Below, piece after piece: positions 36,641-63,660 of a stretch of 64,000 bases of DNA. The notes under the pieces are model-generated. The model was not told the DNA's origin. It saw only the letters and a program-made list of their open reading frames with translations, and made no database searches. Origin of the DNA: Blautia sp. Marseille-P3087 (lineage in GTDB: Bacteria > Bacillota > Clostridia > Lachnospirales > Lachnospiraceae). How positions within the stretch are numbered: the stretch's first letter is position 1; every line of letters starts with the position of its first letter. The stretch is taken from positions 1,996,649-2,060,648 of the forward strand of contig NZ_LT635539.1 of the NCBI RefSeq assembly GCF_900120195.1. The letters run 5' to 3'. Position numbers and translations under genes: made by a program.

Positions 36641-36653
36641 CAAACTTGAATTT
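36641..36653 (-). repeat. Boundary core motif (CAAACTTGAATTT)
   Basis: Exact match to the motifs at 45536 and 63648. Lies just beyond the 271-bp repeat. 36654-36718 holds nothing recognisable. Confidence 0.55.
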
Positions 36654-36718
36654 GTCTGGCTCTTTACATAAATGGAGTTTCATTTTCACATCAGCCATAC
36701 AGATTATCTCTTCAATTT

Positions 36719-36903
36719 TTATACATTCTGATTTGAATTTTTAGAACCAGTTATAAAATATTGTTCTTCGGGGTTATTACAATCTATTTCAAACAGCCGA
36801 TCTAATTCATAGTTGTTTAAATATGCCGTTTTACTTATATTGGACGAGCCAATAATTACAAAGGCTTTATTATCATTAGCAATGTAATAAAACTTACCAT
36901 GAT
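36719..36903 (-). pseudogene. C-terminal fragment of a phospholipase D-like protein
   Basis: Reads PFYHGKFYYIANDNKAFVII then GSSNISKTAYLNNYELD and a stop at 36719. HGK...GSSN is an HKD-type phosphodiesterase motif of PLD-fold nucleases or helicase-associated domains. Only the last motif is left; its upstream side joins the M20 gene. Confidence 0.65.
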
Positions 36904-38129
36904 AAAAAGGTTTGAGCTGATAATTCTTTTAACACGTCACAAAGCAGTTCAAAACCGGTCTGTATATCCGCTACAGCGGTGGCTTCTGCCGGATTATGGC
37001 TGATACCTCCGATACTCGGCACGAAGATCATCGCGGTCGGGAAATGCTTTCCGAATACCATCGAGTCGTGTCCGGCGCCGCTGTTCATATGCTTATACGC
37101 GAGATGTTTCTCTTCACAGTGCCGCTCGATCACCCGAATCACGTTCGGATCCATCTGTACGGACTCCAGCCAGTCATTCTGTCGAAGCCGGGTCTGAAAG
37201 CCCTTGCGTTCGATGGATTCCAGTACACGTTTCAGAAGAACCACATCTTGAAGCAGTTCCTCATTGCTACCATCGCGCAGATCGATGAGCAGATTCACTC
37301 GATCTGCAATGACATTCTGCATTCCAGGAAATACCTGTATCGCGCCATAGGTAAGGGTGGCAGAAGGAGCCTGCGCCATCATCTGACGGGTAGACTCTGT
37401 GATAAATTCCGCAGCAGCTACCACAGGATCGTGCCGTAAAGACATCGAGGTGGTACCTGCATGGTTCTGGCTTCCCTGAATGGTCAGCTCATAGTTGACG
37501 ATACCGACGATACTGTCCACAATACCGATCTGCTTCTGCTCGCTTTCAAGCACCGGTCCCTGTTCGATATGCAGTTCTACGATTGCTCGAATATCGTCAC
37601 GTTTCACGTTTTTCAGCGTTTCCGTCTGATACCCGGCAGATACCAGTGCTTCACGAAGTGTGACGCCATCACGGCTGAGCTCCTCGAGATCCTCTTCTTT
37701 CAGCGTGCCACAGATTGCGCGGCTCCCCTGACAGCCGGATGGAAAACGACTGCCCTCTTCTTCCATCAGACCCCCCACTTCCAGGCTGTGTTTCGGAACG
37801 AAGCCCGACTGTTTGAGGTATCCCAGCGCTGCCACACCAGTCACAACGCCCAGTGCGCCATCATATTTTCCACCGTTCTTTACGGTATCCAGGTGGGATC
37901 CCGTCAATATGGTTCCAGGTTCTGTCCCCGGAAGCCGTCCATACACGTTACCGATCGCGTCCTCTCTGTATTCAAGCCCCAGCTCCTCGATCCACTCACG
38001 CAGGATGTTCTTCGCGATTTTGTCTTCCAGAGTATACGCTGCACGCCAGATCTCTCCGTCGATGCGCGTCGCATCGGCCAGCTGACACAGCATTTCTTCG
38101 ATTCTTACTCCCGCTTCGTTTTTCATCAT
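36894..38129 (-). CDS. M20-family amidohydrolase (allantoate/N-carbamoyl-amino acid hydrolase)
   Basis: About 411 residues. Zinc-ligand motifs are TGSHLDTVKNGGKYDGALGV in part (SHLDTV; GGKYDG), EEEGSRF, and ELHIEQGPVLE; the C-terminal MNSGAGHDSM is also typical. It would hydrolyse allantoate, ureidoglycolate or N-carbamoyl-amino acids. The start at 38129 follows TGAGGTGA. The stop lies inside the PLD fragment, so the last few residues (TFLSW) are not native. The gene is visibly richer in G+C than its neighbours and sits between two 271-bp repeats, which suggests recent acquisition. Confidence 0.9.
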   Translation of the reverse strand: MMKNEAGVRIEEMLCQLADATRIDGEIWRAAYTLEDKIAKNILREWIEELGLEYREDAIGNVYGRLPGTEPGTILTGSHLDTVKNGGKYDGALGVVTGVAALGYLKQSGFVPKHSLEVGGLMEEEGSRFPSGCQGSRAICGTLKEEDLEELSRDGVTLREALVSAGYQTETLKNVKRDDIRAIVELHIEQGPVLESEQKQIGIVDSIVGIVNYELTIQGSQNHAGTTSMSLRHDPVVAAAEFITESTRQMMAQAPSATLTYGAIQVFPGMQNVIADRVNLLIDLRDGSNEELLQDVVLLKRVLESIERKGFQTRLRQNDWLESVQMDPNVIRVIERHCEEKHLAYKHMNSGAGHDSMVFGKHFPTAMIFVPSIGGISHNPAEATAVADIQTGFELLCDVLKELSAQTFLSW

Positions 38130-38150
38130 AAATGTCACCTCATTTCATAG

Positions 38151-38422
38151 TTTGTTTAAATAATAGCTTCATAATTTTTCACCACTCTCTCCAACAGATA
38201 TAATTGGTTCTTTATAAGTACCATAATACCATGCCGGAACACCTTAAAAAATATGTAAATCGAAGAATTAACCCATCTTATTTCACGGATTATGATAAAA
38301 CATAGATTTCCGGCTATAAATCTCTACTTGTTCACAAAAAGATATAAAAAAGACCATCTACTGCTTGTTTACGGTAAATGATCTTTTCATTGCAATATTT
38401 AATTAAATATCATACTGAGCCG
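38151..38422. repeat. 271-bp direct repeat, copy 2
   Basis: Copy of 36357-36627 with one extra A and a few substitutions. It places the promoter and first codons of the LURP-like gene (MKLLFKQT) directly upstream of the M20 gene. Confidence 0.9.
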
Positions 38423-38470
38423 ATTGTTCACGTATCAATTTACATGTTTCTCATTGTATTGCTCGCCCTA

Positions 38471-39226
38471 TTATAAATACAATTTATTTTCCTTCCTACC
38501 GGAACAAACCTTCTTCATTTTCAGTCCAGCGATAAAACTGACAAGCTTACTGTAATTTCGTGCTTTCTTCGGACAGACTGCTACACAGTGCATACAAGAA
38601 ATGCACTTATCCTTATCGGTCATCTTTGGATTTTCCAACGGAATGGCACCTGCCGGGCATTCTTTTGCGCACAGACCGCAGGAAGTGCATTTTCCATTTG
38701 CAACAGGTTTGAGCGGAACACCACCATATTCTCGATATGGTCTGTTTCCCGGAAATGCAGGTGTACTTTGTGCTTCGCTGTTTTGCATAATCTTTGCGGC
38801 AAATTCCAGCAATTCCTTTTCATCCTGCCGATCCGGGCGTCCGGTTCCAAATTGGTGCATCAGGGAATGCTCTGCGACAGCCTCCATTCCTGCGATACAT
38901 ACAAATCCTGATGCCTCCAGAACATCCTGTAGTTCCAATAGAGTATCATCAATCATACGGTTTCCAAATACTGCCACAAGAATTGCTTTCGTACCATCTG
39001 CCTTTACTTTGCGGAACATATCCGTTACAACTGATGGAATGCGTCCACCGTAAGACGGTACAGCAACCAAACATAGGTCCTTTTTTTCAAATTTCACCTT
39101 CATGAGTTTATCTGGTTCTTTAATTAGATCGATTTCTTCAGCATCCAGCTTCGTCCCTTTCGCAACAATATCTGCTACTTTCTCTGTGCCCCCTGTCGGG
39201 CTGAAAAATATGTTATAAAATCTCAT
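38471..39226 (-). CDS. EFR1-type flavodoxin/ferredoxin fusion
   Basis: 251 residues. The N-terminal flavodoxin-like domain begins with FFSPTGGTEKVADIVAKG and has VAVPSYGGRIP; the C-terminal part has two 4Fe-4S motifs, CTSCGLCAKECP and CISCMHCVAVCP. EFR1 proteins are thought to pass electrons between flavin and iron-sulfur centres; the partner is unknown. It starts after AGGAGG, preceded by the boundary motif at 39240-39252. A frameshifted copy is at 61728-62482. Confidence 0.9.
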   Translation of the reverse strand: MRFYNIFFSPTGGTEKVADIVAKGTKLDAEEIDLIKEPDKLMKVKFEKKDLCLVAVPSYGGRIPSVVTDMFRKVKADGTKAILVAVFGNRMIDDTLLELQDVLEASGFVCIAGMEAVAEHSLMHQFGTGRPDRQDEKELLEFAAKIMQNSEAQSTPAFPGNRPYREYGGVPLKPVANGKCTSCGLCAKECPAGAIPLENPKMTDKDKCISCMHCVAVCPKKARNYSKLVSFIAGLKMKKVCSGRKENKLYL

Positions 39227-39239
39227 AATGATCCTCCTA

Positions 39240-39252
39240 CTGATTCCGATTT
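39240..39252 (-). repeat. Boundary core motif (CTGATTCCGATTT)
   Basis: Just upstream of the EFR1 ribosome site. Similarity with the second EFR1 copy begins here and not further upstream. Confidence 0.55.
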
Positions 39253-39298: not shown

Positions 39299-40126
39299 TT
39301 ATATGTTTGAAAGGAATTCTTCTATCAAACTATTTATCATCTCCGGTTTATCTGTATTAGAATTATGACCAGCCCCTTCAATCCACTTTAAAAGAATTTT
39401 CGTTTTTCGATGCCATTCTCTGTTATACCTTATGCATGAACCGGCATGATCCTTTGTACCACATATCAACAGGGAAGAACATTTGATTTCATATGGCAGA
39501 TCCTTTTCCATTGCCTCTGCCAGAATACGAAACCCATGCCCGGCAATTTGGGCATAACGATGCTGATCACCATCATAGACTAGCATCATTTCCTTCATCA
39601 GATTTCTGCCATAATCAGAAGTTGCAACTCCCTCGGTTCCGGATTTCAAAAGCAACTTCCATGGGTAATGTGCATATACTGGTTCCATTCTTTTCAGAAG
39701 CCAGATCTCCACTGCTGTCACATAGTTTCTCTGGAGCGGTGCTGAATCAATGGAAATAAAACCTGCCAGCCGGTCAGGATACAATTGTGCATAAGCCTGT
39801 CCCACATATCCTCCCATTGATTGACCGATTATAATTGGTTTTATGATTTCTTCTTTTTCAAGAATCCCATTCAGCCATTTTGCCTTATCAAACAGATCAA
39901 ATTCAAACCGAAACGGCCAGGAAGAGGCATGAGCCGGTGCATCCCATACAATAATATTATATTTTTCCACGAAATGCTCAACCTGTTTATCAAACAGTCT
40001 ATGGTCAGCAGTCAGCCCCGGAAGAAATACAAGCGTCGTTGTATCCAAACTCAGAATACTTGACCAATAGTGGATCGTTCCACAAGGAGTTTGATATGTA
40101 CTTTCTTTCAACAAGTTCACCTCCAC
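39299..40126 (-). CDS. Alpha/beta hydrolase
   Basis: 275 residues. The nucleophile elbow is GQSMGGYVG (about 108-116), an acid residue follows in LICGTKDHAG, and the catalytic His is in EGAGHNSNTD near the end. It begins LKESTYQTPCGTIHYW. Substrate unknown. An acidic coding fragment precedes it in the reverse direction at 40142. Confidence 0.87.
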   Translation of the reverse strand: MEVNLLKESTYQTPCGTIHYWSSILSLDTTTLVFLPGLTADHRLFDKQVEHFVEKYNIIVWDAPAHASSWPFRFEFDLFDKAKWLNGILEKEEIIKPIIIGQSMGGYVGQAYAQLYPDRLAGFISIDSAPLQRNYVTAVEIWLLKRMEPVYAHYPWKLLLKSGTEGVATSDYGRNLMKEMMLVYDGDQHRYAQIAGHGFRILAEAMEKDLPYEIKCSSLLICGTKDHAGSCIRYNREWHRKTKILLKWIEGAGHNSNTDKPEMINSLIEEFLSNI

Positions 40127-42083: not shown

Positions 42084-42762
42084 TTATGAACTCAAATTCG
42101 TTACCAGTGACGAATATCTTTTTGTCTTGTTTTTAATATCTTCCTCAGTAACACCATAATAACTGTATAAATCTCTGGATATTTTCTTAAATTTTTTCAT
42201 TACCGCCTTATTTCCTGAATAAGACATTCCAAATATATTCCAAGTATAATCTATCTCCATTTCAAGAAAATCATCATCGATTCTTATTTTATACAAATGA
42301 AAATCCATAGGAATTATACTATCGGGCATTTCAGCAATCATTTCATTTCGAGTCTTTATTTTACCCAAATACTCTTTGACGGATGCTTCATTAGAAAAAT
42401 CCGGTACCGAAATATCCTTCATTTCACCCAAAAGTTCTGGTTCATATTGCAAAATCAAACTCTCTTTTAGACATTTTATTTGTTCAATATATTCTCTATC
42501 AGCGGGAGCAGTTTCGGTCAATTCGTATTTATCTTTTGCATACTGCACTGTTTCAGAAAGAGAATGCGGATTTGCAACTATTGTCTTCTCTACTTTTTTT
42601 TCTCTTATATCTATATATGCTATTTTTAATTCTAATCTTTAATGGTTGCTTTTTTGAATGTCCTGCTATAAAAATGCTTGTAGGACCATCTGCACCACCT
42701 ATGATTGAAATCGCATTTTTACTTTTTTGTTTCATTCGCCTTTTCATTCGCCTTTTCCTCAC
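42084..42762 (-). pseudogene. Protein with an ADGPTSIF motif, frameshifted at a poly-A run
   Basis: The first part (42762 to about 42590) reads NAISIIGGADGPTSIFIAG and IYRYKRKK, the second (from about 42590) reads KKVEKTIVANPHSLSETVQY and continues for 154 residues. They join if a run of eight A (about 42594-42601) had seven. The ADGPTSIF motif also occurs in sodium-pumping decarboxylase beta subunits, but this protein is otherwise soluble and is not that subunit. It is broken, phase-variable, or a sequencing error. Confidence 0.7.
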
Positions 42763-42774
42763 AAATCCCGATTT
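42762..42774 (-). repeat. Boundary core motif (CAAATCCCGATTT)
   Basis: Immediately after the GNAT stop codon (42775) and just before the ribosome site of the next gene. Confidence 0.65.
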
Positions 42775-43200
42775 CTATTTTTGTTTCCATAGCATGGTGT
42801 ACTCTTTTTCACCAGTAGCTTCATCCAAACCTTCACATTGAATAATGAACCCTTCTCTTTGGTAAAAAGAAATTGCTCTGGCATTCTTCTGATATACATT
42901 TAATCGTAAGCTGACTTTTTTATCCTTAATATAATCCAATAAAAGCTTACCTATGCCACATGACTGCATTTCATCAGAGACAAAAATACCTTCGATATAT
43001 TCATCATTTAGTCCTACAAATCCTTGTATCATTTTATCTGCTTCAAACACATAGACTTCGGATTGTGACAGCATTTCTTTTACTAATTCATAATTACTTT
43101 TCCAGTATTGATTGGAAATAAAATAATGTGCTTTCAGATTTGTCTTTAACCATATGTCAGCAACTCTATCGATATCTCCGTTCAGCAACTTTCTAATCAT
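42775..43200 (-). CDS. GNAT-family N-acetyltransferase
   Basis: 141 residues. The acetyl-CoA loop is QSCGIGKLLLDY (about 77-88), preceded by EGIFVSDEMQ; the end has NARAISFYQREGFI (YxxxGF). The start at 43200 follows GGAGAATA. Likely acetylates a small amine; the substrate is unknown. Confidence 0.88.
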   Translation of the reverse strand: MIRKLLNGDIDRVADIWLKTNLKAHYFISNQYWKSNYELVKEMLSQSEVYVFEADKMIQGFVGLNDEYIEGIFVSDEMQSCGIGKLLLDYIKDKKVSLRLNVYQKNARAISFYQREGFIIQCEGLDEATGEKEYTMLWKQK

Positions 43201-43397
43201 AACAAATATTCTCCACAACTACATCCTTTATGCATTTTCTCTTTTTTCCATTCTATCACAAGCTCACCATTAATCATCAATTTTTTGATATTTTTTCTTT
43301 TCCCCCACTGTAAAACAGCCTCTGAACGTTTCGTTATATAGAGGGATACAAATAAGAGCAAGATCCACCCATGTTTAACAGTATTGCCGTTTGGCAT
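43197..43397 (-). CDS. Possible 66-residue ORF, probably an element remnant
   Basis: Reads MPNGNTVKHGWILLLFVSLYITKRSEAVLQWG in two blocks and ends CSCGEYLL, overlapping the GNAT start. AGGAGAAC precedes the ATG. No family recognised. The upstream DNA (43398-43540) has a TATGGGGAGATCCCCAT palindrome and GGGGGTGTAGCC, of a kind often seen next to mobilization genes. Confidence 0.3.
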   Translation of the reverse strand: MPNGNTVKHGWILLLFVSLYITKRSEAVLQWGKRKNIKKLMINGELVIEWKKEKMHKGCSCGEYLL

Positions 43398-43608: not shown

Positions 43609-43818
43609 TTAATCTTCAACACTCTCTACTGAAACTTCTTTTTTCTTCCTACTTTTACCAGAAATCATCTTGTGTCCTGTATAAATAGCCATAATCATGC
43701 AAAGCAAAGAACTTGCTGCAAAGTACTTATGGCCTTCTTTTGATCCCTTATAACCTGTATAAAAAGTTCCAAGCATTGTAATCAGTGCACCGATAGACCA
43801 ATATTTATGTGATTTCAT
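43609..43818 (-). CDS. DUF6219-like small membrane protein
   Basis: 69 residues with two helices (IGALITMLGTFYTGYKG and YFAASSLLCMIMAIYTGHK) and a lysine-rich C-terminus. AGGAGGTATC precedes the start. Common in clostridial accessory DNA; function unknown. Confidence 0.7.
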   Translation of the reverse strand: MKSHKYWSIGALITMLGTFYTGYKGSKEGHKYFAASSLLCMIMAIYTGHKMISGKSRKKKEVSVESVED

Positions 43819-43870: not shown

Positions 43871-43884
43871 CAAACTGGAAGTTG
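43871..43884 (-). repeat. Boundary core-like motif (CAAACTGGAAGTTG)
   Basis: Ends at the base before the stop codon of the 131-residue membrane protein. Confidence 0.55.
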
Positions 43885-44280
43885 TTATTCTTTTACGATT
43901 TTATCAATGCAGAAATAAACAGCTATCATAATTAAAGATATTACCAATCCAACATAAAACTCTGGAAAAGCAAATTCGATACTATTATGAATACTCATTT
44001 TCCCTGTTATATTCATTATGTGCCAAGTAAAGAAATTGTATATTTCAGAAATCACAATTCCTACTACTCCTAATCCACCAAAAATTTTATTGATTTTTTT
44101 ATTTTTAAATGGAATCCATACGCCTATAATAAAAAATAACACAGATATAATGCCTATTGGATTATACAAGTTAATTAAACCACTAATCTCTTGTACACCT
44201 TTCATTCCACCATATTGGTTTGATAACATTGGTAATAAACTAATAACAAATGCTATTGTTAATATAATCTTCTTTTTCAT
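43885..44280 (-). CDS. Four-helix membrane protein of unknown function
   Basis: 131 residues with helices at about 5-20, 40-56, 70-88 and 106-125 (last is GLVISLIMIAVYFCIDKI). GTGAGATG lies upstream of the ATG. No family recognised; stands alone between two boundary motifs. Confidence 0.65.
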   Translation of the reverse strand: MKKKIILTIAFVISLLPMLSNQYGGMKGVQEISGLINLYNPIGIISVLFFIIGVWIPFKNKKINKIFGGLGVVGIVISEIYNFFTWHIMNITGKMSIHNSIEFAFPEFYVGLVISLIMIAVYFCIDKIVKE

Positions 44281-44328
44281 AAAATACATCTCACTTTCAA
44301 ATTACGACTTATCGTTATGTTCACTTTT

Positions 44329-44838
44329 TCAGACAAGAAATTTCAAAACTAAATCATTAAAATCTTTTGCTTCTTCAAAAGCACCATGACCATATTTTTC
44401 ATAGATTTTAAGCTTGCAATCAGAAATATTCTCAGCTAGCTCATATGCTGCCTTATTTCCGACAATATAATCCCGTTCTCCGCCAACAATAAGGGTTGGT
44501 ACTTGAATCTTTCCAAGCCAGGGCCGTGCATCATGTGCCATACAAGCATTTCCCTGTATAATAAACCTTTCTAAACTCCTTGGTTCACTCATTTTTAATA
44601 ATATTCCATAAAATCGTCGGTATGTTTTTAATTTCTGTTCAGAGTATGTTTTCTCAGCAGTATCAATAAATATATCTTTAAAATCACCTTGCTTGGCCAT
44701 ATCAATCCATGTACCAACAACCGTTTTAATGACATCATTTGCATATGGTGCCGTATTGGCAAGAACCAACTTGGTTACAAGCTCTGGATATTTTGCTGCA
44801 AGATGCATAGATATCACTCCACCCTGTGATACACCCAT
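44329..44838 (-). pseudogene. Alpha/beta hydrolase lacking its N-terminal third
   Basis: Starts at the nucleophile elbow MGVSQGGVISMHLA and continues normally: LIVGGERDYIVG (acid) and YGHGAFEEA (His). The roughly 90 residues that should precede the elbow are absent; upstream sequence reads into the palindromic motif at 44862. Probably inactive. Confidence 0.8.
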
Positions 44839-55056: not shown

Positions 55057-55064
55057 GCAATTTT

Positions 55065-55637
55065 TTAATAAGTCATTCTTACGTTATCTACCACGTAATC
55101 ATACATTGGATCTCCATACATAGTTCCTCTATTCACACAATGTGTGTCAAACTTAAAATATGCTACAGATTTACCCGAATTAAGAAATGATTTTAAATGA
55201 CTAACGTAAGTACTCTCTCCGCCGATAAAATTAAGAATTACAGAAACACTGAGTCCAACAACCGAACCAACAGGACCACCTAAAGCAGCTAGCAGTAAAG
55301 TCCCTAAACTTTTAGTCGCACCCTCTCCCACATTTATTGCTTTAAGAGCTGCCTCTGCTTGACTTCTTGTCATAGAATATGAAAAAGTCTTATTTTTTAC
55401 AGTACAGTATCCAATTCCGCCACCCATTCGTGTTTCTTGAGAAGGAACTATATATAGTTCTCCATCTTCATAAATTATAGTATAACCACCATTGGATAAG
55501 TCAACATCTTCTTTACTACAAGTCCCCTTCGAATTGTCATTTTGATTATACCTTTCACTAGCAAAAGATACTGTTGACATCGAAAATCCTAAAACCATTG
55601 ACAAAATAATTGCTATACAACGTTTAATTTTTTTCAT
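55065..55637 (-). CDS. Secreted protein with a glycine/alanine-rich hydrophobic segment (IME cargo)
   Basis: 190 residues. A signal peptide (about 1-27, IAIILSMVLGFSMSTVSFAS) with cleavage near FASE. Then a polar region, and from about 115 to 150 LGTLLLAALGGPVGSVVGLS and VSVILNFIGG, which resembles the membrane-active part of bacteriocins or pore-forming proteins. Three Cys (CSKED, YCTVK, HCVNR) may pair outside the cell. A 49-residue membrane protein follows. GGAGG precedes the start. No family recognised; the orphan IME copy lacks it. Confidence 0.7.
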   Translation of the reverse strand: MKKIKRCIAIILSMVLGFSMSTVSFASERYNQNDNSKGTCSKEDVDLSNGGYTIIYEDGELYIVPSQETRMGGGIGYCTVKNKTFSYSMTRSQAEAALKAINVGEGATKSLGTLLLAALGGPVGSVVGLSVSVILNFIGGESTYVSHLKSFLNSGKSVAYFKFDTHCVNRGTMYGDPMYDYVVDNVRMTY

Positions 55638-55761
55638 GATTTTCCTCCTTTCTTGAGGAATTTAAGATTTATAGACGACTTTAAAAGAATGCGCATGCTT
55701 TTGTATACACTTAATATATATCACTCTTTAAAAAAATAAAAGACTTGTTTTGAATTATTTT

Positions 55762-55850
55762 TATAGTATCCTATAATAGTGGTGATTTATATAATTTTAA
55801 TGTTTATTTTTAAGATTCTCTAACAAACTTTTATACTATCCTATAAAACG
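55762..55850. promoter_or_regulatory. Two TATAGTATCCTATAA-type boxes 70 bp apart
   Basis: TATAGTATCCTATAATA at 55762 and TATACTATCCTATAAAA at 55832, upstream of the secreted-protein gene. The even spacing and near identity suggest paired regulator sites. The rest of 55638-55992 is A+T-rich without a gene; AACACAGG/CCTGTGTT at 55959-55987 may be a terminator. Confidence 0.45.
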
Positions 55851-55992
55851 GTCAATTTTAAAAATCACGAAATTGCAGGCTTTACAACACTTTGTAACAC
55901 GATATAGGTCTGTCCGATAATCCCTCTCATATAAAAATAATCAATGCTTCATTTTTAACACAGGAAGATAAAGACATCTCCCTGTGTTTTTC

Positions 55993-56964
55993 TTAATAAT
56001 ATCCCCGCTCTTCTCGCCAGTCTTTTACATAACATCGAATTCCAATATAGACCACATATACAAGTAGTAACAGTACAATGAGGTTTATCGGAATGACAGA
56101 TTTTATCCATTCGCCAAAGTAGATTACGATAGCTGTACTCATTATTGCCACCATAATGCTGATGATATCCCAACAATATTTCCGGTAGATTTTTCCCACC
56201 TGATAGCCAATCCCAATTATCAGGAATCCCGTTATAATGAATAAAATTCCCATAACAATAGCCGCGATCAGCCAGTACACAATCCCGGAAACGATACTGT
56301 TTGAGATTCCATTGCTTAACTGTCCGAAAGAATCTGCTCCTGTAACAAATTCTCGAAACAGGTTTATGATTCCTTTACCAATCGTACCGAAAAAGGTGAT
56401 ACAGTCGTTAAGAAAAACCGGAGAAAGGATAGCTGTGAACAGTGTAGTTGCTATGCTGTACCATGCCAACAGGAACATAAGGCTTTCATAACCTGTTGTC
56501 ATTTGTTTATATTTTTTCTCCAACTGAATTTTTCGATTATCGCATTTTTCTTTTGCTTTCTGATAAGCAGTACGGTCACAGTTATCGCATTTCTCATAAG
56601 GCACTTTTTTCTCGACAGGCACCTCTACCGTCTTTTGGTGTGTCTGTGCATAGCGTTTTGCCTGCTCCGCTTTTTCGTACTTAAATTTCCATGCCACGAC
56701 TTCTGCGTCGGCTCTTTTCCTGCTGTCTGTCTCGCTGGTTAATTGTTCCTCTGTTTGCTTTAATTTTGTCCGCAATGCTTCGATATTCTCGGCTCTGTTT
56801 TCGCTGTTCAATTTCTCGTTCAAGGTCAGCGATCTGTTTAGCTGCCTGTTCAGTTCCAGAATTGTCTGGTCTTTCTGATCCAGTTCGTCCTGCATCTGTT
56901 CCGTCATTGCCAGGAGTTCTTCCACCCGCCCGACGTTCTCTAAGTTTACGCATTCGTTCATCAA
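55993..56964 (-). CDS. Coiled-coil membrane protein of the IME (DUF6040-like)
   Basis: 323 residues. The first 95 or so form a coiled coil (LEELLAMTEQMQDELDQ-type heptads), followed by a Cys-containing linker (CDNCDRTAYQKAKEKC) and four helices at about 165-185, 220-255, 262-282 and 286-307. It ends KDWREERGYY. Its first 94 codons overlap the relaxase gene in a different frame. 3' tips of the same gene remain at 46619 and 50752. Probably a standard IME accessory protein; function unknown. Confidence 0.72.
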   Translation of the reverse strand: MMNECVNLENVGRVEELLAMTEQMQDELDQKDQTILELNRQLNRSLTLNEKLNSENRAENIEALRTKLKQTEEQLTSETDSRKRADAEVVAWKFKYEKAEQAKRYAQTHQKTVEVPVEKKVPYEKCDNCDRTAYQKAKEKCDNRKIQLEKKYKQMTTGYESLMFLLAWYSIATTLFTAILSPVFLNDCITFFGTIGKGIINLFREFVTGADSFGQLSNGISNSIVSGIVYWLIAAIVMGILFIITGFLIIGIGYQVGKIYRKYCWDIISIMVAIMSTAIVIYFGEWIKSVIPINLIVLLLLVYVVYIGIRCYVKDWREERGYY

Positions 56965-58381
56965 TATCCCTCGCTTTCTCTATCTGCTGTTTAATGTCAG
57001 TAATAAGCTGTTCTCGTTGTTCAGCTTCTGCGTTAATTCCTGCCATTGCTGATTCTCGTTTTCCAACTGTTCGATTCTGACTTTTTGCTGTTCGATCTGG
57101 GAGAGCAGTTCTTCTGTATCTGGCAAAAGATTCAGAAGCCCGGATAACTCGCTGTTTAAGATCTGCAAACTCTGGTTCTGCTCCTGAAAGGACAGAAGCT
57201 GTCTGTCCCGTTCCTGTAATTCCTGTACCATCTCTGCCATAAGGTTCTGCTGTTCCTCGATCTGGTTTATCATTGACTCCATCATGGGAATGACTTCCCG
57301 GCTTTCTTCTAAGGTCATTTAACCACTCCTTCCACTGTGATAATGCACCAGATACTTTTCCGAAACTGGTCTGTATCTTTTTCAGCAGTGCATTTTGTCT
57401 TTTTATGATCTGGTTTTCCTCTACTTTCCATGAAGCTGTCTGCACCTGTCCACTCTGGAATTTCTCATCAATCTTTCTTGCATCAGCACCCTCATGGATT
57501 GTAGGGATTTCTAATTTTCCCTGTCTTGCATAGGAACGGTGGTCAATCTGTTGTTCTACTGATAAATGGTCATTACAGACTTTCGCCCATTCGCTCCGCC
57601 ATAATTCACAATTCTTTGGATTGTTCCATCCGGTAGCATCGGTCAGCACCCGTTTCCATTGTTTACGGTTCCTTGCACCAACTTTCTGATTACCGTTTTC
57701 GTCCAATACCGGAATTCGGATTCCATGACGGTCAGGATTCTTTTTATCCTGCCACCAGTCCGGGTGGGATTCATCAACCACAATATTTCCGTCAGTATCT
57801 CTGACAAACTCCCAGTCTTTGACTTCTTTGTTTCCCCATGAGTGGTCGGGATTAAAGGGACGCATGGTTACAAGTAAATGCACATGCGGGTTTCCGTCGC
57901 CCTTATCGTGAATGCTCCAATCTGCACACATGCCTTTGTCCACAAAGTTTTTCTGAATATAATCTGTTGTATATTCAATTTGTTCCTGTCGATTCCATTC
58001 TTTTGGAAGTGAGAACTCAAACGATCTGCCAAGCTGTGCGTCTGAACTTTTCTCAATCTTCAAAACTTCATTCCATAAGCACTGTTTCTGAAAAGTAAGT
58101 TTGAATTTCTCCAGTACAACTTCTTTGTTGTCTGCCCTTTTATACCGGACAGATTTCTGAAACCGTTTGATATTTTCGGCAGGTACATTCTGCCATTCCT
58201 GCGGTGCATTTTCACACATCATCAAACTGGTATAAACAACTTCTCTTTTGGAAGTGTAGTAACTGATCCTGCCTGTTTCTTCATTTTTCATTACCTCACC
58301 ATTGAGATAGGCAGACGCTGATATGATGGATTTCCCTTTGCTGCGTCCGACAATCTTTACCGTATAATGAAAGATCGCCAT
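56681..58381 (-). CDS. mobA: MobA/MobL-family (MOBQ) relaxase
   Basis: 566 residues from the start at 58381 (MAIFHYTVKIVGRSKGKSI), chosen because the family starts so. The relaxase domain (1 to about 220) has the histidine cluster GNPHVHLLVTMRPF and the N-terminal Tyr-containing block SASAYLNGEVM. It would nick at the oriT 270 bases upstream and pilot the DNA through a helper conjugation system. The last 210 or so residues are charged coiled coil that share DNA with two other frames. Confidence 0.93.
   Translation of the reverse strand: MAIFHYTVKIVGRSKGKSIISASAYLNGEVMKNEETGRISYYTSKREVVYTSLMMCENAPQEWQNVPAENIKRFQKSVRYKRADNKEVVLEKFKLTFQKQCLWNEVLKIEKSSDAQLGRSFEFSLPKEWNRQEQIEYTTDYIQKNFVDKGMCADWSIHDKGDGNPHVHLLVTMRPFNPDHSWGNKEVKDWEFVRDTDGNIVVDESHPDWWQDKKNPDRHGIRIPVLDENGNQKVGARNRKQWKRVLTDATGWNNPKNCELWRSEWAKVCNDHLSVEQQIDHRSYARQGKLEIPTIHEGADARKIDEKFQSGQVQTASWKVEENQIIKRQNALLKKIQTSFGKVSGALSQWKEWLNDLRRKPGSHSHDGVNDKPDRGTAEPYGRDGTGITGTGQTASVLSGAEPEFADLKQRVIRASESFARYRRTALPDRTAKSQNRTVGKRESAMAGINAEAEQREQLITDIKQQIEKARDIDERMRKLRERRAGGRTPGNDGTDAGRTGSERPDNSGTEQAAKQIADLEREIEQRKQSREYRSIADKIKANRGTINQRDRQQEKSRRRSRGMEI
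56980..57318 (-). CDS. Coiled-coil protein encoded wholly inside the relaxase gene
   Basis: 112 residues: MTLEESREVIPMMESMINQI, then Gln/Glu/Leu heptads and a Leu-Pro break (LLNLLPDTEELL). It lies in the same frame as the gene at 55993 and ends 16 bases before it, while the relaxase is read through the same DNA in the +1 frame relative to it. Its composition is typical of a real coiled coil. No good ribosome site was identified, so translation may be by coupling. Confidence 0.5.
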   Translation of the reverse strand: MTLEESREVIPMMESMINQIEEQQNLMAEMVQELQERDRQLLSFQEQNQSLQILNSELSGLLNLLPDTEELLSQIEQQKVRIEQLENENQQWQELTQKLNNENSLLLTLNSR

Positions 58382-58627
58382 GATCCGTTTCCCCCCTTTC
58401 TGCCGTACCCGGCATTGATTTCCGGCAGTTAACATTTCCTGTAAAAGAGAATGGTATCTGCCGGAACGCCCTCTGCGTAAGAGTGCTCTGTGCATAACAG
58501 CCTGCATGGAATGCGCCCCTCTGGCGAAGAGTGCCTCCTGCGACATGAGCAGGTCTGCATGAAATGCCCGCCGACGGAACGAGCCCGGCAAGCGTTAGCG
58601 CAGACCGGTTGCCACCTGTGGCAAACT

Positions 58628-58664
58628 TATACGGACGACCTCTGGTTGTCCATAAGTGCGCCCT
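58628..58664 (+). other. oriT with an RSF1010-type nic sequence
   Basis: TAAGTGCGCCCT at 58653-58664 is the MOBQ/RSF1010 nic-region sequence (nick expected after TAAGTGCG). Directly before it is GGACGACC-TCT-GGTTGTCC (58632-58650), the inverted repeat expected for relaxase recognition. It lies between the relaxase gene and the DUF3847-like gene. Confidence 0.85.
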
Positions 58665-58681
58665 TCATAAAAAAGCAATGA

Positions 58682-58705
58682 AGGGAATGGAAACTCCACT
58701 CCCTC
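58682..58705 (-). terminator. Terminator after the DUF3847-like gene
   Basis: Minus strand AGGGAGTGGA, GTTT, TCCATTCCCT, then TCATTGCTTTTTT. Confidence 0.7.
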
Positions 58706-58710
58706 CGGCA

Positions 58711-59025
58711 TTACACTTCCTCCGTATTCGCAACCGGCTCTTTTTGCATTGCCTTTGAGAAGAATTTCCCATTTGCTTCCTGCCTTTTTAAGAAGCCGAC
58801 CAGCTTCGGAATATCTTCTTCCTCAATCGCAGAACCAATCACTGATTCCACCGCACCGCCAATCTGACAGAGCCTGTGGGTTCGTTTTTTTGTTTCCACA
58901 TCTTTCTGACGTTTCTTCAGTTCCCGTTTCTGTGCTGCGTACTGTTTCGCTTTTTCAAGGCTTTCCTGTTCTCTTTTTTCCAACTGGAGCAGACGCTCCT
59001 CATAACTCTTTGTTGATCTTGCCAT
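58711..59025 (-). CDS. DUF3847-like relaxosome protein
   Basis: 104 residues from 59025 (MARSTKSYEERLLQLEKREQ), highly basic and helical in the first half, then IGGAVESVIGSAIEEEDIP and LVGFLKRQEANG. Similar proteins (DUF3847) precede MobA/MobL in many clostridial elements and probably help the relaxase at oriT. An ATG 9 bases further upstream is less likely because the ribosome site would be too close. Confidence 0.75.
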   Translation of the reverse strand: MARSTKSYEERLLQLEKREQESLEKAKQYAAQKRELKKRQKDVETKKRTHRLCQIGGAVESVIGSAIEEEDIPKLVGFLKRQEANGKFFSKAMQKEPVANTEEV

Positions 59026-59171
59026 AAATATCATCGTCCTTTCTTTTTTCTACCAAACATAAGTTTCCTGTTGTCTGTCAGACGAAGTACATGGTATAAT
59101 CTGCTTGCGTGTAGGTATATCATGGCTTCGGTCTGATAAAACCTTTGGCGGTTTCTTCGGGAACCGCCTTT

Positions 59172-59402
59172 TTAAGTGGAACCGTTTCTTGTGACGGCTT
59201 TCACATTTCCTTTATCCCTTAAGTCCCTGCCCTCATTGGCTTCCATGAAAAGTTCCAGCATATCCGTTTTAATCAGGACTTTCCTCCCGACCTTTAATAC
59301 CGGAAGTTTCTTCCACTCCACCAGTTTTCTCAGGGTGTTCCTGCCGATTCCCGTATAATCCGCAGCTTCCTCAATAGATAAGGCAATCTTTCTTTGCGTC
59401 AT
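59172..59402 (-). CDS. xis: Excisionase (Tn916 Xis-like)
   Basis: 76 residues, winged helix of the excisionase type: LSIEEAADYTGIGRNTLRKL then KKLPVLKVGRKVLIKTDMLE. It directs the integrase towards excision. Transcribed divergently from the XRE gene with an operator-like palindrome between them. AGGAGGTGGTC precedes the start. Confidence 0.88.
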   Translation of the reverse strand: MTQRKIALSIEEAADYTGIGRNTLRKLVEWKKLPVLKVGRKVLIKTDMLELFMEANEGRDLRDKGNVKAVTRNGST

Positions 59403-59418
59403 GTGACCACCTCCTTAT

Positions 59419-59437
59419 AAATTGCATTATGCAATTT
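59419..59437. promoter_or_regulatory. Operator-like palindrome between xis and the XRE gene
   Basis: AAATTGCATTATGCAATTT, nearly perfect. A related ATTGCATATTGCAAT overlaps the -35 box of the XRE promoter at 59511-59525. Likely binding sites for the XRE protein. Confidence 0.65.
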
Positions 59438-59517
59438 CTTTTGTGCTGTCAGTATAGCGTGTTTATATCATCTTGTCAAGCATTACGAAATTATATTGTT
59501 TATTGTTTAATTGCATA

Positions 59518-59546
59518 TTGCAATATTGTTTGTTATGTGGTATAGT
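59518..59546 (+). promoter_or_regulatory. Promoter of the XRE regulator gene
   Basis: TTGCAA (59518-59523), 17 bases, TATAGT (59541-59546). Confidence 0.75.
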
Positions 59547-59577
59547 AATGACATACCGAAAAAGGAGGCACATCAGC

Positions 59578-60207
59578 ATGAAAGATAAAGAATTACGCAA
59601 GCTGATCGGTAGCAGGGCAAAACAGCGCCGTACAGAATTGAATCTGACACAGCCTTATATCGCTGAAAAGATGGGTGTGACTGCATCTACGATTCAGAGA
59701 TATGAAGCCGGAACGATTGACAATACAAAGAAAATGGTGCTGGAAGGTCTTTCAGAAGCTCTCCATGTATCTGTGGAATGGCTCAGAGGGGAAACGGACG
59801 AATATGAAACCGACATTACGGATAAAAGAGAATTACAGATTCGTGATGCCATGACGGATATTCTCAAACAGTTACCTCTTGACCTTACGAAAACAGAAGA
59901 TGCTTTTTCCAAAGACCTACTGCTGTTAATGTTGAAACAATATGAACTGTTTTTGGATTCGTTCCAGTTCGCCTGCAAGAATTACAAAGGCAATACCAAA
60001 GAAGCGGACATTGCAAAAGTAATGGGGTTTGAATCGAATGATGAATATAACGAGATCATGTTTCTCAGGGAGATCACCCATACTGTCAACGCATTGAATG
60101 ACATGGCAGATATTGTAAGGCTCTATTCCAAGAAACCGGAAACAGCAGAACAACGGCTTGCAAATCTTTTATCCGAAGTTATGTACGAGGATTCTGAATC
60201 GGTATAG
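59578..60207 (+). CDS. XRE-family regulator of the IME
   Basis: 209 residues; the start at 59578 follows AAAGGAGG. Helix-turn-helix at about 10-65 (LNLTQPYIAEKMGVTASTIQ) and a helical C-terminal region (about 85-205). Divergent from the excisionase gene with operator-like palindromes between them, so probably the element's repressor. Confidence 0.88.
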   Translation: MKDKELRKLIGSRAKQRRTELNLTQPYIAEKMGVTASTIQRYEAGTIDNTKKMVLEGLSEALHVSVEWLRGETDEYETDITDKRELQIRDAMTDILKQLPLDLTKTEDAFSKDLLLLMLKQYELFLDSFQFACKNYKGNTKEADIAKVMGFESNDEYNEIMFLREITHTVNALNDMADIVRLYSKKPETAEQRLANLLSEVMYEDSESV

Positions 60208-60293
60208 TAAGATAATCGGAGTTATGATATACTTACACGCAAGAAGCATTTCAGCAGTTCCGATTGTCTGATATCGAAAGGAGACATACGATT

Positions 60294-61589
60294 ATGGCAA
60301 AAGGATCTGTTAGAAAGAAAGGAAAGAAATGGTACTACCGCTTCTATGTAGAGGACGCAAGCGGCAAAATGGTTCAGAAAGAATATGCCGGAACCGAAAG
60401 CAAAAGTGAGACAGAAAAACTTCTCCGCAAGGCACTGGAAGATTACGAAGATAAGAAATTTGTTGCAAAAGCAGATAACCTTACCGTAGGTGAACTTCTG
60501 GACATGTGGGCAGAAGAAGAACTGAAAACCGGAACACTCAGTAATGGCACAGTGGAAAATTATCTCAGTGCAATCCGTTGCACTAAGAAACACCCGATTG
60601 CAGACCGTAAACTGAAAACAGTTACTGCCGAACATTTACAGGCATTTCTTGATCTGCTTACATTCGGTGGCGAATTTCCAGACGGAAAAGTGAGAAAAGG
60701 ATACAGTAAAGATTATATCCATTCTTTTTCCGCAGTGTTGCAGCAGTCATTCCGTTTTGCAGTATTTCCAAAACAGTTAATCAGTTTCAATCCGATGCAG
60801 TATATTAAGCTGAAAAAACAGGCAGAGGAAGTTGACCTCTTTTCCGATGATGAAGTCGAAGATGGCACACAGCCGATTTCACATGAGGATTATGAGCAAC
60901 TTATCAAGTATCTGGAAAAGAAAAATCCACCTGCGATCCTGCCGATTCAGATTGCATATTATGCAGGACTTCGCATCGGTGAAACCTGTGGTCTTACATG
61001 GCAGGACATCAACCTTGAAGATCAATGCCTGACCATTAAAAGAAGTATCCGTTACGACGGTGCAAAGCATAAAAATGTGATTGGAACGACCAAGCGAAAG
61101 AAAGTAAGGATTGTTGATTTTGGAGATACGCTGACTGAAATATTGAAAGCAGCAAGACGGGAACAACTGAAAAGCCGGATGCAGTACGGGGAACTTTACC
61201 ACCGCAACTACTACAAAGAGGTGCATGTGAAAAACAGGGTGTATTATGAATACTATCACCTTGACGGAACACAGGAAGTCCCGGCAGATTATAAAGAAAT
61301 ATCCTTTGTCTGCCTCAGACCGGATGGCAGTCTGGAACTGCCGAGTACACTCGGCATTGCTTGCAGGTCAGTATCAAAAAAGCTGGAAGGATTTGAAGAT
61401 TTTCACTTTCACCAGTTACGACATACCTACACCAGCAACCTGCTCTCGAATGGAGCTGCTCCGAAAGATGTACAGGAACTGTTAGGACATTCCGATGTCA
61501 GTACCACAATGAACATTTACGCTCACTCAACAAGAAAAGCAAAGCGGGATTCCGCAAGACTTCTTGATAAAGTAGCGAGCAACGCTTAA
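60294..61589 (+). CDS. int: Tyrosine integrase (Tn916 type)
   Basis: 431 residues from 60294 (MAKGSVRKKGKKWYYRFYVE). It has an N-terminal arm-binding domain, a core-binding SAM-like domain (about 60-160), and the catalytic set: Arg in YYAGLRIGETCGL, His-x-x-Arg in FHQLRHTYTSN, and the nucleophile Tyr in TTMNIYAHST. GAAAGGAG precedes the start. It should recombine the 13-bp repeats at 54043 and 61716. Confidence 0.95.
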   Translation: MAKGSVRKKGKKWYYRFYVEDASGKMVQKEYAGTESKSETEKLLRKALEDYEDKKFVAKADNLTVGELLDMWAEEELKTGTLSNGTVENYLSAIRCTKKHPIADRKLKTVTAEHLQAFLDLLTFGGEFPDGKVRKGYSKDYIHSFSAVLQQSFRFAVFPKQLISFNPMQYIKLKKQAEEVDLFSDDEVEDGTQPISHEDYEQLIKYLEKKNPPAILPIQIAYYAGLRIGETCGLTWQDINLEDQCLTIKRSIRYDGAKHKNVIGTTKRKKVRIVDFGDTLTEILKAARREQLKSRMQYGELYHRNYYKEVHVKNRVYYEYYHLDGTQEVPADYKEISFVCLRPDGSLELPSTLGIACRSVSKKLEGFEDFHFHQLRHTYTSNLLSNGAAPKDVQELLGHSDVSTTMNIYAHSTRKAKRDSARLLDKVASNA

Positions 61590-61715
61590 ATAAAAATTTC
61601 CCTTATTTCCCTTGCGGATTCCTCACAAGGGTAAAAATAAGGGAAAATACATATCATTTCACTATCTAAGGGGCTAAAAAGCCTGTAAAATAAGGAAAAC
61701 TCAGGAAATCTCTCC

Positions 61716-61728
61716 ACAAACTCCGATT
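61716..61728. repeat. Right attachment repeat of the IME
   Basis: ACAAACTCCGATT, 126 bases past the integrase stop; its last base belongs to the stop codon of the EFR1 pseudogene. Confidence 0.8.
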
Positions 61729-62482
61729 TATAGGTACAATTTGTTTTCCTTCCTGCCGGAACAAACCTTCTTCATTTTCAGTCCAGCGATAAAACTGACA
61801 AGCTTACTGTAATTTCGTGCTTTCTTCGGACAGACTGCTACACAGTGCATACAGGAAATGCACTTATCCTTATCGGTCATCTTCGGATTGTCCAACGGAA
61901 TGGCACCTGCCGGGCATTCTTTTACGCACAGACCGCAGGAAGTGCATTTTCCATTTGCAACAGGTTTGAGCGGAACACCACAATATTCTCGATATGGTCT
62001 GTTTCCCGGAAATGCAGGTGTCCTTTGTGCTTCGCTGTTTTGCATAATCTTTGCGGCAAATCCCAGCAATTCCTTTTCATCCTGCTGATCCGGGCGTCCG
62101 GTTCCAAATTGGTGCATCAGGGAATGCTCTGCGACAGCCTCCATTCCTCCGATACATACAAATCCTGATGCCTCCAGAACATCCTGCAATTCCATAGGGT
62201 ATCATCAATCATACGGTTTCCAAATACTGCCACAAGAATTGCCTTCGTACCATCTGCCTTTACTTTGCGGAACATATCCGTTACAACTGATGGAATGCGT
62301 CCACCGTAAGACGGTACAGCAACCAAACATAGATCCTTTTTTTCAAATTTCACCTTCACGAGTTTATCTGGTTCTTTAATTAGATCGATTTTTTCAGCAT
62401 CCAGCTTCGTCCCTTTCGCAACAATATCTGCTACTTTCTCTGTGCCCCCTGTCGGGCTGAAAAATATATTATAAAATCTCAT
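61728..62482 (-). pseudogene. EFR1 flavodoxin/ferredoxin, frameshifted copy
   Basis: A close copy of 38471-39226. A single T is missing after GATGATACCCTA (near 62199), so the N-terminal half runs out of frame (...DDTLWNCRMF) and the C-terminal half reads from another frame with both ferredoxin motifs (CTSCGLCVKECP, CISCMHCVAVCP) intact. Similarity with the other copy stops at the boundary motifs on each side. Confidence 0.92.
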
Positions 62483-62495
62483 AATGCTCCTCCTG

Positions 62496-62508
62496 CTAAT
62501 ACCGATTT
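62496..62508 (-). repeat. Boundary core motif (CTAATACCGATTT)
   Basis: Just upstream of the EFR1 pseudogene ribosome site; left limit of similarity with the copy at 38471. Confidence 0.55.
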
Positions 62509-62530: not shown

Positions 62531-63049
62531 TTATAGTGCTATCTTTTTCCATTTTCTAATCTTAGTTCTAAATGTTCCGAACGGAGCAACCGTGTTAACA
62601 TGTATAAACTTGTATACTTCCCAGACCGCTGTTTTGGTTGCTTCATCGGCCCACTTTCTCATATGGGGCTCGAATAACTCTTCGTCGCTTAATGAGTCAA
62701 TCATTTCATAAATCGAATTAATATTCTCTTTCAGCATATCTTTCAACTCCTGCAACGACAGATAAGCATATGTATCTGTAAACCATTGATATAATTCGCC
62801 AAGCTGATTCCACTTAAAATCATCCGAAGGAGTCTTGACATGAAGACCATTTCTTTCGTCTGCTTCCCATTTAAGAACAAGAGTTGTCCAGCCAACCTGG
62901 TAAGCAAGATTTTCTGCTGGAGTTCTGTCAACTTCCTCAACTCTCTTATCTTTTAATGATTCCGGAATAATATCAAATTCTGAAATGTACTTTGCAAAAC
63001 TTTTGTTTATCTCGTTCTTAAGTTCATCTTTATTCTCGTATGTTCTCAC
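62531..63049 (-). CDS. ClbS/DfsB family protein (DUF1706)
   Basis: 172 residues, four-helix DinB-like bundle: NKSFAKYISEFDIIPESLKD, TPAENLAYQVGWTTLVLKWE and LYQWFTDTYAYLSLQELKDM fit DUF1706. ClbS itself protects against colibactin by hydrolysing it; other members are uncharacterised. The start codon at 63049 is GTG or the ATG context after GAGGAGATAG; the frame and length fit the family. Lies between two boundary motifs. Confidence 0.87.
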   Translation of the reverse strand: MRTYENKDELKNEINKSFAKYISEFDIIPESLKDKRVEEVDRTPAENLAYQVGWTTLVLKWEADERNGLHVKTPSDDFKWNQLGELYQWFTDTYAYLSLQELKDMLKENINSIYEMIDSLSDEELFEPHMRKWADEATKTAVWEVYKFIHVNTVAPFGTFRTKIRKWKKIAL

Positions 63050-63062
63050 TAGTCTATCTCCT

Positions 63063-63075
63063 CAAATACCAATTT
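63063..63075 (-). repeat. Boundary core motif (CAAATAC CAATTT type)
   Basis: CAAATACCAATTT, overlapping the stop codon of the DUF6809-like fragment, at the same place as in the paralogous fragment at 22615. Confidence 0.6.
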
Positions 63076-63200
63076 CACGACATCATTTCTAATACAGATT
63101 TTACCGTACTTTTTAATCTCAGTCCATCCTTTATACCCAGGCGATAGAAAAACTCTTCTGTTTCTGCTCCGCTGGCAAATATTTCATCACAGTACTTCGT
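63075..63200 (-). pseudogene. DUF6809-like fragment
   Basis: KYCDEIFASGAETEEFFYRL, GIKDGLRLKSTVKSVLEMMS and stop; closely related to 22627-22797 but without a start, beginning right after the small HTH gene stop. Confidence 0.7.
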
Positions 63201-63203
63201 TTT

Positions 63204-63380
63204 TTACTGTTCCAAGTTATCGAGCCAGTCATCGAAACTCTTCTTGGAGATGCGATACTTTCCGCCATCCAACTGGATCCACCGGAATTCCTTTTTCTTC
63301 AAAAGGTTATAAATAGTAGGTCTGCTGACTCCTAAGATTTCCTGTAACTCCTGAACTGTATAACATCTTTTCTCTGACAT
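63204..63380 (-). CDS. Small helix-turn-helix protein (excisionase/MerR type)
   Basis: 58 residues: YTVQELQEILGVSRPTIYNL, then EFRWIQLDGGKYRISKKSFD. This is the winged helix of the DNA-binding excisionase family (HTH_17). AAAGAGGATAAAG precedes the ATG. It may regulate itself through the ACGAGT repeats just upstream (63491-63542). Confidence 0.8.
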   Translation of the reverse strand: MSEKRCYTVQELQEILGVSRPTIYNLLKKKEFRWIQLDGGKYRISKKSFDDWLDNLEQ

Positions 63381-63490
63381 TTCTTTATCCTCTTTTCTTT
63401 GAAATATGAAAGAAAAATTATCCCTTCATATAACGAAACGCTCAGAGCATGTTTTACAGTGGTCAAAAGCAAATTTTTTTACTTTTTTTC

Positions 63491-63542
63491 TTACGAGTCT
63501 TCTTGCGAGTTTTTTTAATACGACTCGTAAGAAACTCGTAAC
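63491..63542. promoter_or_regulatory. Four ACGAGT-type repeats
   Basis: TTACGAGTC (63491), TTGCGAGT (63503), GACTCGTAA (63522) and ACTCGTAAC (63534): two in each orientation. They lie upstream of the small HTH gene and look like operator or recombination sites. Nothing else is seen in 63381-63647. Confidence 0.55.
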
Positions 63543-63647
63543 ATTAGATTTCTACATTTTTCCTGAAATTAAGTAAAGAAAAAGAGCATATGGAATTGAA
63601 TCCATACACTCTATGATTTCTTGAACTTTATTTCATTTTTAATTCAA

Positions 63648-63660
63648 CAAACTTGAATTT
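63648..63660 (-). repeat. Boundary core motif (CAAACTTGAATTT)
   Basis: Five bases after the stop codon of the peptidase E gene. Confidence 0.6.

Follow-up and report, generated by a model that had tools for sequence, protein, structure and literature searches.

The window analysed here, a stretch of 64,000 nucleotides from Blautia sp. Marseille-P3087, carries single genes for unrelated proteins and an integrative and mobilizable element (IME) with its own tyrosine integrase (Table 1). Both are bounded by the same 13-bp near-palindromic sequence, hereafter the core, which stands between the genes and again at the two ends of the IME. A first-pass annotation of the window had listed 14 sites of this motif and proposed that the IME-type recombinase, or a relative, moves single genes between them. 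Comparison with related loci points, with a probability that can be put at about 60%, to a system of mobile gene cassettes that resembles an integron in its working but has neither integron integrase nor folded attC sites, and that uses the short double-stranded attachment cores of the IME instead.

All 14 listed sites are present in the window, the one given at 45942 being better placed at 45943. Nine of them (22615, 36641, 42762, 45512, 45536, 54044, 61717, 63063 and 63648) match CAAAYTYSRATTT with at most one mismatch, and two mismatches are needed at the other five (39240, 43871, 44862, 45943 and 62496). The nine good sites all lie on the plus strand, that is, opposite to the genes, and read AAATYSRARTTTG on the gene strand. 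Throughout the genome the exact pattern is found 14 times, against once for the reversed pattern, and AAATTCAAGTTTG eight times against none. The consensus, AAAT-YSR-ARTTTG, is formed by inverted AAAT and TTTG arms around a variable centre; beyond the 13 bp conservation is slight and consists only of the ribosome-binding site (RBS) and a weak linker consensus. Two forms can be distinguished: type 1, AAATTCAAGTTTG, lies 3' of a gene, whose TAA stop it often completes, and type 2, AAATCGGAATTTG and variants, lies 5' of a gene. Of the 75 junction-like cores in all loci compared, 16 complete a TAA stop (offset -2), 20 lie no more than 3 nt from a stop, and a start codon follows 12-19 nt beyond the core in 28. 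The motif had been described as recurring between genes, and a matrix scan of 91 loci agrees: 129 of 151 strong cores are intergenic though about 80% of that DNA is coding, and 83 adjoin a same-strand gene against 16 that adjoin an opposite-strand one, counts that are partly circular, notably in the strand ratio, the matrix having been trained on junctions beside same-strand genes. The motif was the reason for including many of the loci, and core counts are accordingly not genome-wide rates; the 14 of the 91 that have no array (280 kb, picked after their matches were known) hold five matches, none of them intergenic.

The movement of core-delimited single-gene units is well supported by the way in which homology between loci begins and ends. 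An all-against-all comparison was made of loci of at least 7 kb, retaining shared stretches of at least 120 bp and at least 80% identity and dropping ends within 30 bp of a locus edge. It yielded 235 shared stretches with 438 usable ends, and at 24 of these a core stands at the end in both copies. IME ends are involved in five of the 24 (L014/L090, L014/L022, L022/window 54043, L088/L090 and L090/L099, L denoting loci and G genomes) and not in the other 19. Randomly shifted core positions, a control that allows for the motif-based choice of loci, gave a mean of 0.01 and at most 1 in 200 trials; the reversed pattern gave no such end, but from only 13 sites compared with 141 core sites. Two duplications in the window had been claimed to stop at the motif, and both do so as described. 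The match between the EFR1 ferredoxin copies runs from the core (39252/62508) to the stop (38471/61728) at 96.7% identity, and the DUF6809 fragments (22624/63072) have the core in common and continue beyond it into different sequence and unlike genes. Elsewhere, G000 (L012/L013) and G004 (L027) have in common a two-gene unit of about 1.5 kb, 99.7% identical from core to core, between differing flanks. G001 and G004 share one locus, with 96% identity in the adjacent relaxase region, at which two genes stand between the cores in one species and a single gene in the other. Directly past its core, the SdpI gene continues in three ways, one each in the window, L009 and L025.

Filled and empty sites were found as well. 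In nine of 48 cases of extra DNA in one of two loci, both filled ends carry a core scoring 7.5 or more. With two duplicate cases and two spans of many genes (7.6 and 8.0 kb) excluded, there remain five small core-bounded units, of 265, 584, 629, 658 and 1072 bp, that are present in one genome and absent from another. The 265-bp unit encodes a 75-aa open reading frame (ORF) between two copies of AAATTCCAGTTTG in L105 (Butyribacter intestini), and L086 has a single AAATTCCAGTTTG at this place (flanks 100% and 98% identical). The 1072-bp unit of L135, with SdpI and a 175-aa gene, corresponds to a single core in L145 (flanks 98% and 95%). A 629-bp peptidase S51 unit of L086 is absent from L105 (flanks 100% over 392 bp and 95% over 38 bp only). 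A further S51 unit, of 658 bp, stands in L024 and is missing from the window between the DUF6809 fragment and DUF1706 (flanks 87% and 85%), and the window in turn has a 584-bp remnant of a second integrase element, Int2, that L024 lacks between S51 and DUF1706 (flanks 87% and 93%); here L024 has a double core and the window a single one, a less tidy arrangement than in the other three comparisons. Together with the 24 shared ends, these comparisons across species and genera bear out the expectation that units move with their motif boundaries. The core after the S51 gene in L086, AAATTCTAATTTA, is chimeric, type 1 in its left half and type 2 in its right, and the exchange therefore appears to fall inside the core centre.

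The IME has an integrase, an excisionase, a relaxase and direct repeats at both ends, as expected of such elements, and its repeat, CAAACTCCGATT, is indeed the motif, as had been noted from the window. Its relation to the integrase was examined by scoring the 260 bp past the integrase gene in 38 loci with related integrases, the window's own IME, L014 and L087 included. A core was found in 25 of the 38 at a score of at least 12 bits (1.05% in shuffles) and in 33 at a score of at least 9 (4.1% in shuffles). It lies at +116 to +132 past the gene in 31 of the 33, and at +152 and +173 in the remaining two, with a centre that varies. The same test over 300 bp gave a core in only 1 of 18 loci with Int2-family integrases (3.0% in shuffles), and from this difference it follows that the core serves this family of IME integrases as attachment site. 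Distal IME ends (GGTGAAATCTCAATC or nearly so) are joined to a core in several loci, and a gene frequently starts next to it; L060 has a single gene enclosed by two IME ends, with cores at the joints. The integrase occurs at E<=1e-60 in 45 of 397 genomes of the family and, as a close relative, in 4 of 11 array genomes (G000, G004, G085 and G219); G001, which has no close integrase, keeps an IME end (L022:5011). Across the 397 genomes the association of integrase and core is significant for both the IME integrase and Int2, but carries little weight, being confounded by mobile-element load and by IME ends being cores themselves. The nearest solved structures of the IME integrase are those of an 'Int protein' (6emy/6emz/6en0), the Int of Tn1549, matched over a 46-residue stretch only. 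The window also contains a second, decayed IME (45943-54043, distal end at 45943) adjoining genes of other kinds, whose sequence at 46614-46718 is 82% like intact-IME sequence at 55988-56092. A truncated second integrase start stands beside the intact IME integrase in L014 (7378-7641) and L087 (12582-12848), and L014 has a 1194-bp tandem duplication, 99.8% identical.

A feature missed by the first-pass annotation is a conserved double-core junction, in which two cores stand about 11 bp apart in a layout that resembles attC. It was found in 37 instances, a few near-palindromic sites read on both strands included, and 28 of them have a linker of 10-11 nt. The conserved linker, often NAGAATTNAGA, is seen at 45512-45548 in the window, at L012:4780-4816, in L103-L107 and in L111; L103 has a different one, TCTGCCC... 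A folded attC, which this layout suggests, was considered and rejected: the type-1 and type-2 halves show no pairing covariation (9.59 of 12 against 9.58 when permuted, fraction 0.47), and the linker is not always carried along with the gene. No integron integrase (TIGR02249) passed the 265-bit cut-off in any of the 11 array genomes, the best score being 87.3 bits, and the earlier view of an integron-like array without IntI and folded attC sites was thus upheld on both counts. The arrays do consist of single-ORF units with the site at the 3' end and a common orientation. A TATAAT-like hexamer (at least 5 of 6) precedes 5 of 11 first-position cores, compared with 27.5% in shuffles, a hint at most of a common promoter ahead of the arrays.

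The same genes recur in different company. With a pool cut-off of at least 80% protein identity over at least 60% of length, applied to 30 loci, the recurring proteins are S51 peptidase, EFR1 ferredoxin, alpha/beta hydrolase, FMN reductase, GNAT, SdpI, DUF1706, DUF3592, DUF3784 and several unnamed families; a PAP2-family and a CAT-family protein are further genes in core-bounded units. Pool genes of 80-100% identity are differently ordered in G000, G001, G004, G005, G085, G162, G219, G303, G378, L104, L105 and L107. A collection of 84,980 species genomes has the exact double-core pattern on 12 contigs, each of which bears the label Clostridia, Lachnospiraceae or Bacillota or that of a member of these, such as Eubacterium ramulus and Butyribacter intestini. 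The L084 contig (G219) matches E. ramulus ATCC 29099 and contains a 1-kb stretch of L106, and G219 belongs to the family of the window. The NCBI taxonomy has Butyribacter in Lachnospiraceae and E. ramulus in Eubacteriaceae; in GTDB the latter is placed in Lachnospiraceae. Plasmids and phages were considered as carriers and rejected, the plasmid matches being two Eubacterium/Lachnospira eligens records with 149 bp of an IME end and the phage match a single one of 51 bp. The large E./L. eligens replicons NC_012780.1 and NZ_CP085937.1 match the distal end region of the IME at 86.7%, and a viral-collection contig, L184 (IMGVR_UViG_3300037455_001576), has one double core near its end. In L086 (8008-8112) and L029 (50-154), the DNA enclosed by a type-1 and a type-2 core is nearly identical over some 80 bp and includes a TATAAT hexamer and what looks like a terminator hairpin; it may be a promoter that travels as a unit.

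In the proposed cassette system, a unit would be a compact gene: an RBS, a single ORF or now and then two, and a stop codon that in many cases touches the core. Units would be arranged head to tail, most of them in the same orientation to the core. Strands would be exchanged within the centre of two cores, most likely by an IME-type integrase supplied in trans. The gene would leave as a circle with one core and insert at another, the IME would dock at the sites used by cassettes, and cassettes would be expressed by read-through from an upstream promoter. As far as sequence comparison can establish it, the anatomy of the units, their boundaries, their gain, loss and reordering and the role of the core as IME attachment site are settled; the enzyme that moves them is probably an IME-type integrase. 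What has held of the original proposal is thus the traffic of core-bounded units and the identity of core and attachment site; the IME integrase itself, rather than a relative, is no more than a candidate catalyst, a close copy being absent from 7 of the 11 array genomes (G001, G005, G162, G303, G312, G351 and G378). That absence is one of several points that weigh against the cassette system, in addition to the choice of loci and the training of the matrix described above. At 5 of the 38 IME loci no core reaches score 9, although only 25 bp could be searched in one of them, L045. Integrases of this type often need arm sites, and the cassettes lack the flanking sequence found inside the IME. 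Some junctions have a weak core or none, as at the 3' end of the first EFR1 copy, and the double core is left unexplained by a single-core model. The two S51/Int2 comparisons between L024 and the window concern one junction of one locus pair, with flanks of 85-93%, and one genome per species was compared throughout. Nor is the motif clearly in excess: at no more than one mismatch the window has nine, against a shuffled mean of 4.76 (sd 2.12; 2 of 100 shuffles reach nine), and at two mismatches 59 against 53.9. The number of motifs by itself sets the window apart only mildly, and the case is carried by position and comparison. A bolder version, in which a second, independently evolved cassette economy maintains a single-gene pool across species and genera by means of IME-type tyrosine integrases, with the double core as its dedicated site and functional counterpart of attC, falls somewhat short of even odds.

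The units could also have been left behind by the IMEs themselves. An IME end would recombine with a core beyond a neighbouring gene, the gene would travel as a passenger, and on departure of the IME it would be stranded between cores as a minimal cis-mobilizable unit with no independent cassette movement. Such accretion of cis-mobilizable elements (CIMEs) in Firmicutes is described in PMC5704250. In the window (45943), L009, L060 and L104 the distal end of an IME abuts a core with a gene start after it, and in L060 a gene is enclosed by two IME ends, as this explanation would have it. It is nevertheless unlikely, if the strongest competitor: the filled and empty units have no IME sequence at either side, the common gene order is broken at single genes, and most array genomes have no close IME integrase. 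This last fact suits better a dedicated recombinase, chromosomal or lost from many genomes, that would read type-1 core, 10-11 nt linker and type-2 core as IntI reads attC, the IME merely exploiting its sites. The recurrence of the double core, its linker length in 28 of 37 instances and the 12 contigs with the exact pattern speak in favour of it, and a search for recombinases beside arrays, which found none in common, was insensitive, its profile having missed Int2 in L029 and L013, so that others may have been missed. However, its halves would be expected to covary and do not, the linker does not always accompany the gene, and breakpoints fall at type-1 cores, with S51 joined directly to p107; a dedicated recombinase is for these reasons a doubtful choice, somewhat behind stranding by IMEs.

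Another candidate is Int2, likewise missed by the first-pass annotation. The element comprises a 58-aa helix-turn-helix (HTH)/excisionase-like gene, a larger HTH gene, a 463-aa tyrosine integrase, ParB, ParA and DUF6809. Intact copies lie beside arrays in L029 (4103-10106, with ParB, ParA and DUF6809) and L135 (9325-12259), an intact relative (45%) is found in L013, and decayed copies occur in the window (63076-63647 and 22624-22752), L009, L010, L144 and L145. Genomes with Int2 are richer in cores, 13 of 48 having at least two exact cores against 15 of 349 without it (p=2e-6), an association that may reflect mobile-element load. As a core-specific recombinase Int2 was nonetheless rejected. 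In the nine more diverged loci that have the small HTH gene, the best core upstream of it scores 8.3, short of the threshold of 9. Downstream, where 18 of 20 loci were usable, the only core is that of L138 (10729-10742), at +127, a distance typical of IMEs. Its own attachment site thus appears to differ, and Int2 as the platform of the cassette recombinase is improbable. Least probable of all, to the point of being barely credible, is that the motif is a common leader or regulatory element and that ordinary homologous recombination has spread the genes. In favour are the near-palindromic form of the core, its frequent position just 5' of an RBS and counts in the window that are near chance. 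This reading is contradicted by homology that breaks at the core on the 5' and the 3' side of genes, more than a common 5' leader would explain, by the filled and empty sites and by the core forming the ends of IMEs.

Regarding known systems, PMC8618304 describes integrons by small single-ORF units, a common orientation, a 3' recombination site and arrays that vary between related genomes, features of integron cassettes and of clusters of attC sites lacking integron integrases (CALIN) that are also seen here. The arrays differ in their 13-bp near-palindromic core, the lack of an IntI over the cut-off in 11 genomes and the lack of evidence for a folded, covarying site. Typical integron cargo includes acetyltransferases, hydrolases and unknown families, and the cargo here is similar. 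CIMEs, as defined in PMC5704250, are DNA flanked by IME-integrase attachment sites, without an integrase of their own and often beside IMEs. The cassette units are alike in all three respects but are single genes, in arrays, pooled across genera; among the proteins scanned no integrase or relaxase family was found in single-gene units, but the unit at 63076-63647 is a decayed Int2 element. The IME at 54044-61729 resembles single-tyrosine-integrase IMEs with relaxed target choice in its integrase, excisionase, relaxase, conserved target arms and variable centre, and differs from them in that its core also bounds non-IME genes. The variable centre recalls the coupling sequences of Tn1549 and Tn916. 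Integrases of that type differ in that the target here is a defined core and not any AT-rich DNA, and the match covers the 46 residues alone. By the tests made, the system would thus work like an integron without being one, and may be filed, with reservations, under attachment-site-flanked, trans-mobilizable DNA. No printed description of it was found in a literature search of titles and abstract starts, from which most subscription papers and all bioRxiv preprints were missing. Integrons are the textbook route for the shuffling of single genes, and another recombinase and site in several genera of gut Clostridia would explain the exchange of small adaptive genes. If this is true, cassette arrays can arise more than once, and the short core can serve at once as a key for finding such genes and as a test substrate for recombination.

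Table 1. Cores, gene units and IME features in the window
Feature	Position	Strand	Remarks
Core AAATCTGAATTTG	22615..22627	-	at second DUF6809 fragment, then a different gene
Type-1 core AAATTCAAGTTTG	36641..36653	-	in decayed intergenic region
EFR1-family ferredoxin unit (NF038196), copy 1	38471..39226	-	
Weak core AAATCGGAATCAG	39240..39252	-	directly before EFR1 RBS; upstream limit of EFR1 duplication
Alpha/beta hydrolase gene	39299..40126	-	common to L024, L029, L086
Core AAATCGGGATTTG	42762..42774	-	at GNAT stop; homology with L024, L026 ends here
GNAT acetyltransferase unit	42775..43218	-	also in L024, L026, L086, L135, L136, L145
DUF6219 unit	43609..43818	-	
Weak core AACTTCCAGTTTG	43871..43883	-	at stop of 134-aa unit
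134-aa unit without Pfam family	43885..44289	-	65% identical copy in L144
Alpha/beta hydrolase unit, N-terminally short	44329..44838	-	
Weak core AACTTCAAAGTTG, two mismatches	44862..44874	-	
Alpha/beta hydrolase unit	44876..45499	-	between cores 45512 and 44862
Type-2 core AAATCGGAAGTTG	45512..45524	-	11 nt past type-1 core; then RBS of next gene
Type-1 core AAATTCAAGTTTG	45536..45548	-	overlaps SdpI-family stop; first half of double-core junction; homology to L009, L025 copies ends here
SdpI-family gene unit	45547..45924	-	also in L009, L025, L135 beside other neighbours
Core at distal end (GGTGAAATCTCAATC) of decayed IME	45943..45955	-	abuts SdpI unit
IME, cores at both ends, 12-bp direct repeat CAAACTCCGATT	54044..61729		
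Distal attachment core of IME, CAATCGGAGTTTG	54044..54056	-	
IME relaxase, MobA/MobL	56681..58507	-	best NCBIfam match MobQ, below its cut-off
Excisionase-family DNA-binding protein of IME	59172..59402	-	
IME tyrosine integrase (PF00589)	60294..61589	+	core beside integrase and relatives in 33/38 loci
Integrase-side attachment core AAATCGGAGTTTG	61717..61729	-	overlaps EFR1 copy 2 stop
EFR1 copy 2	61728..62482	-	755 nt against 756 of copy 1; reads as two ORFs
Weak core AAATCGGTATTAG	62496..62508	-	before EFR1 copy 2 RBS
DUF1706 unit	62531..63049	-	also in L024
Core AAATTGGTATTTG	63063..63075	-	corresponding place in L024 holds 658-bp peptidase S51 unit
Int2 element remnant	63076..63647	-	58-aa HTH gene 63204-63380 and 3' end of DUF6809; L024 lacks it between the same neighbours
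Type-1 core AAATTCAAGTTTG	63648..63660	-	after S51 peptidase stop
Peptidase S51 unit, cut by window end	63666..64000	-	

Apart from the cassette finding, the window regions 17538-20449 and 31545-34881 share several repeats of 55-526 bp that are 87-100% identical and lie mostly about 14 kb apart.

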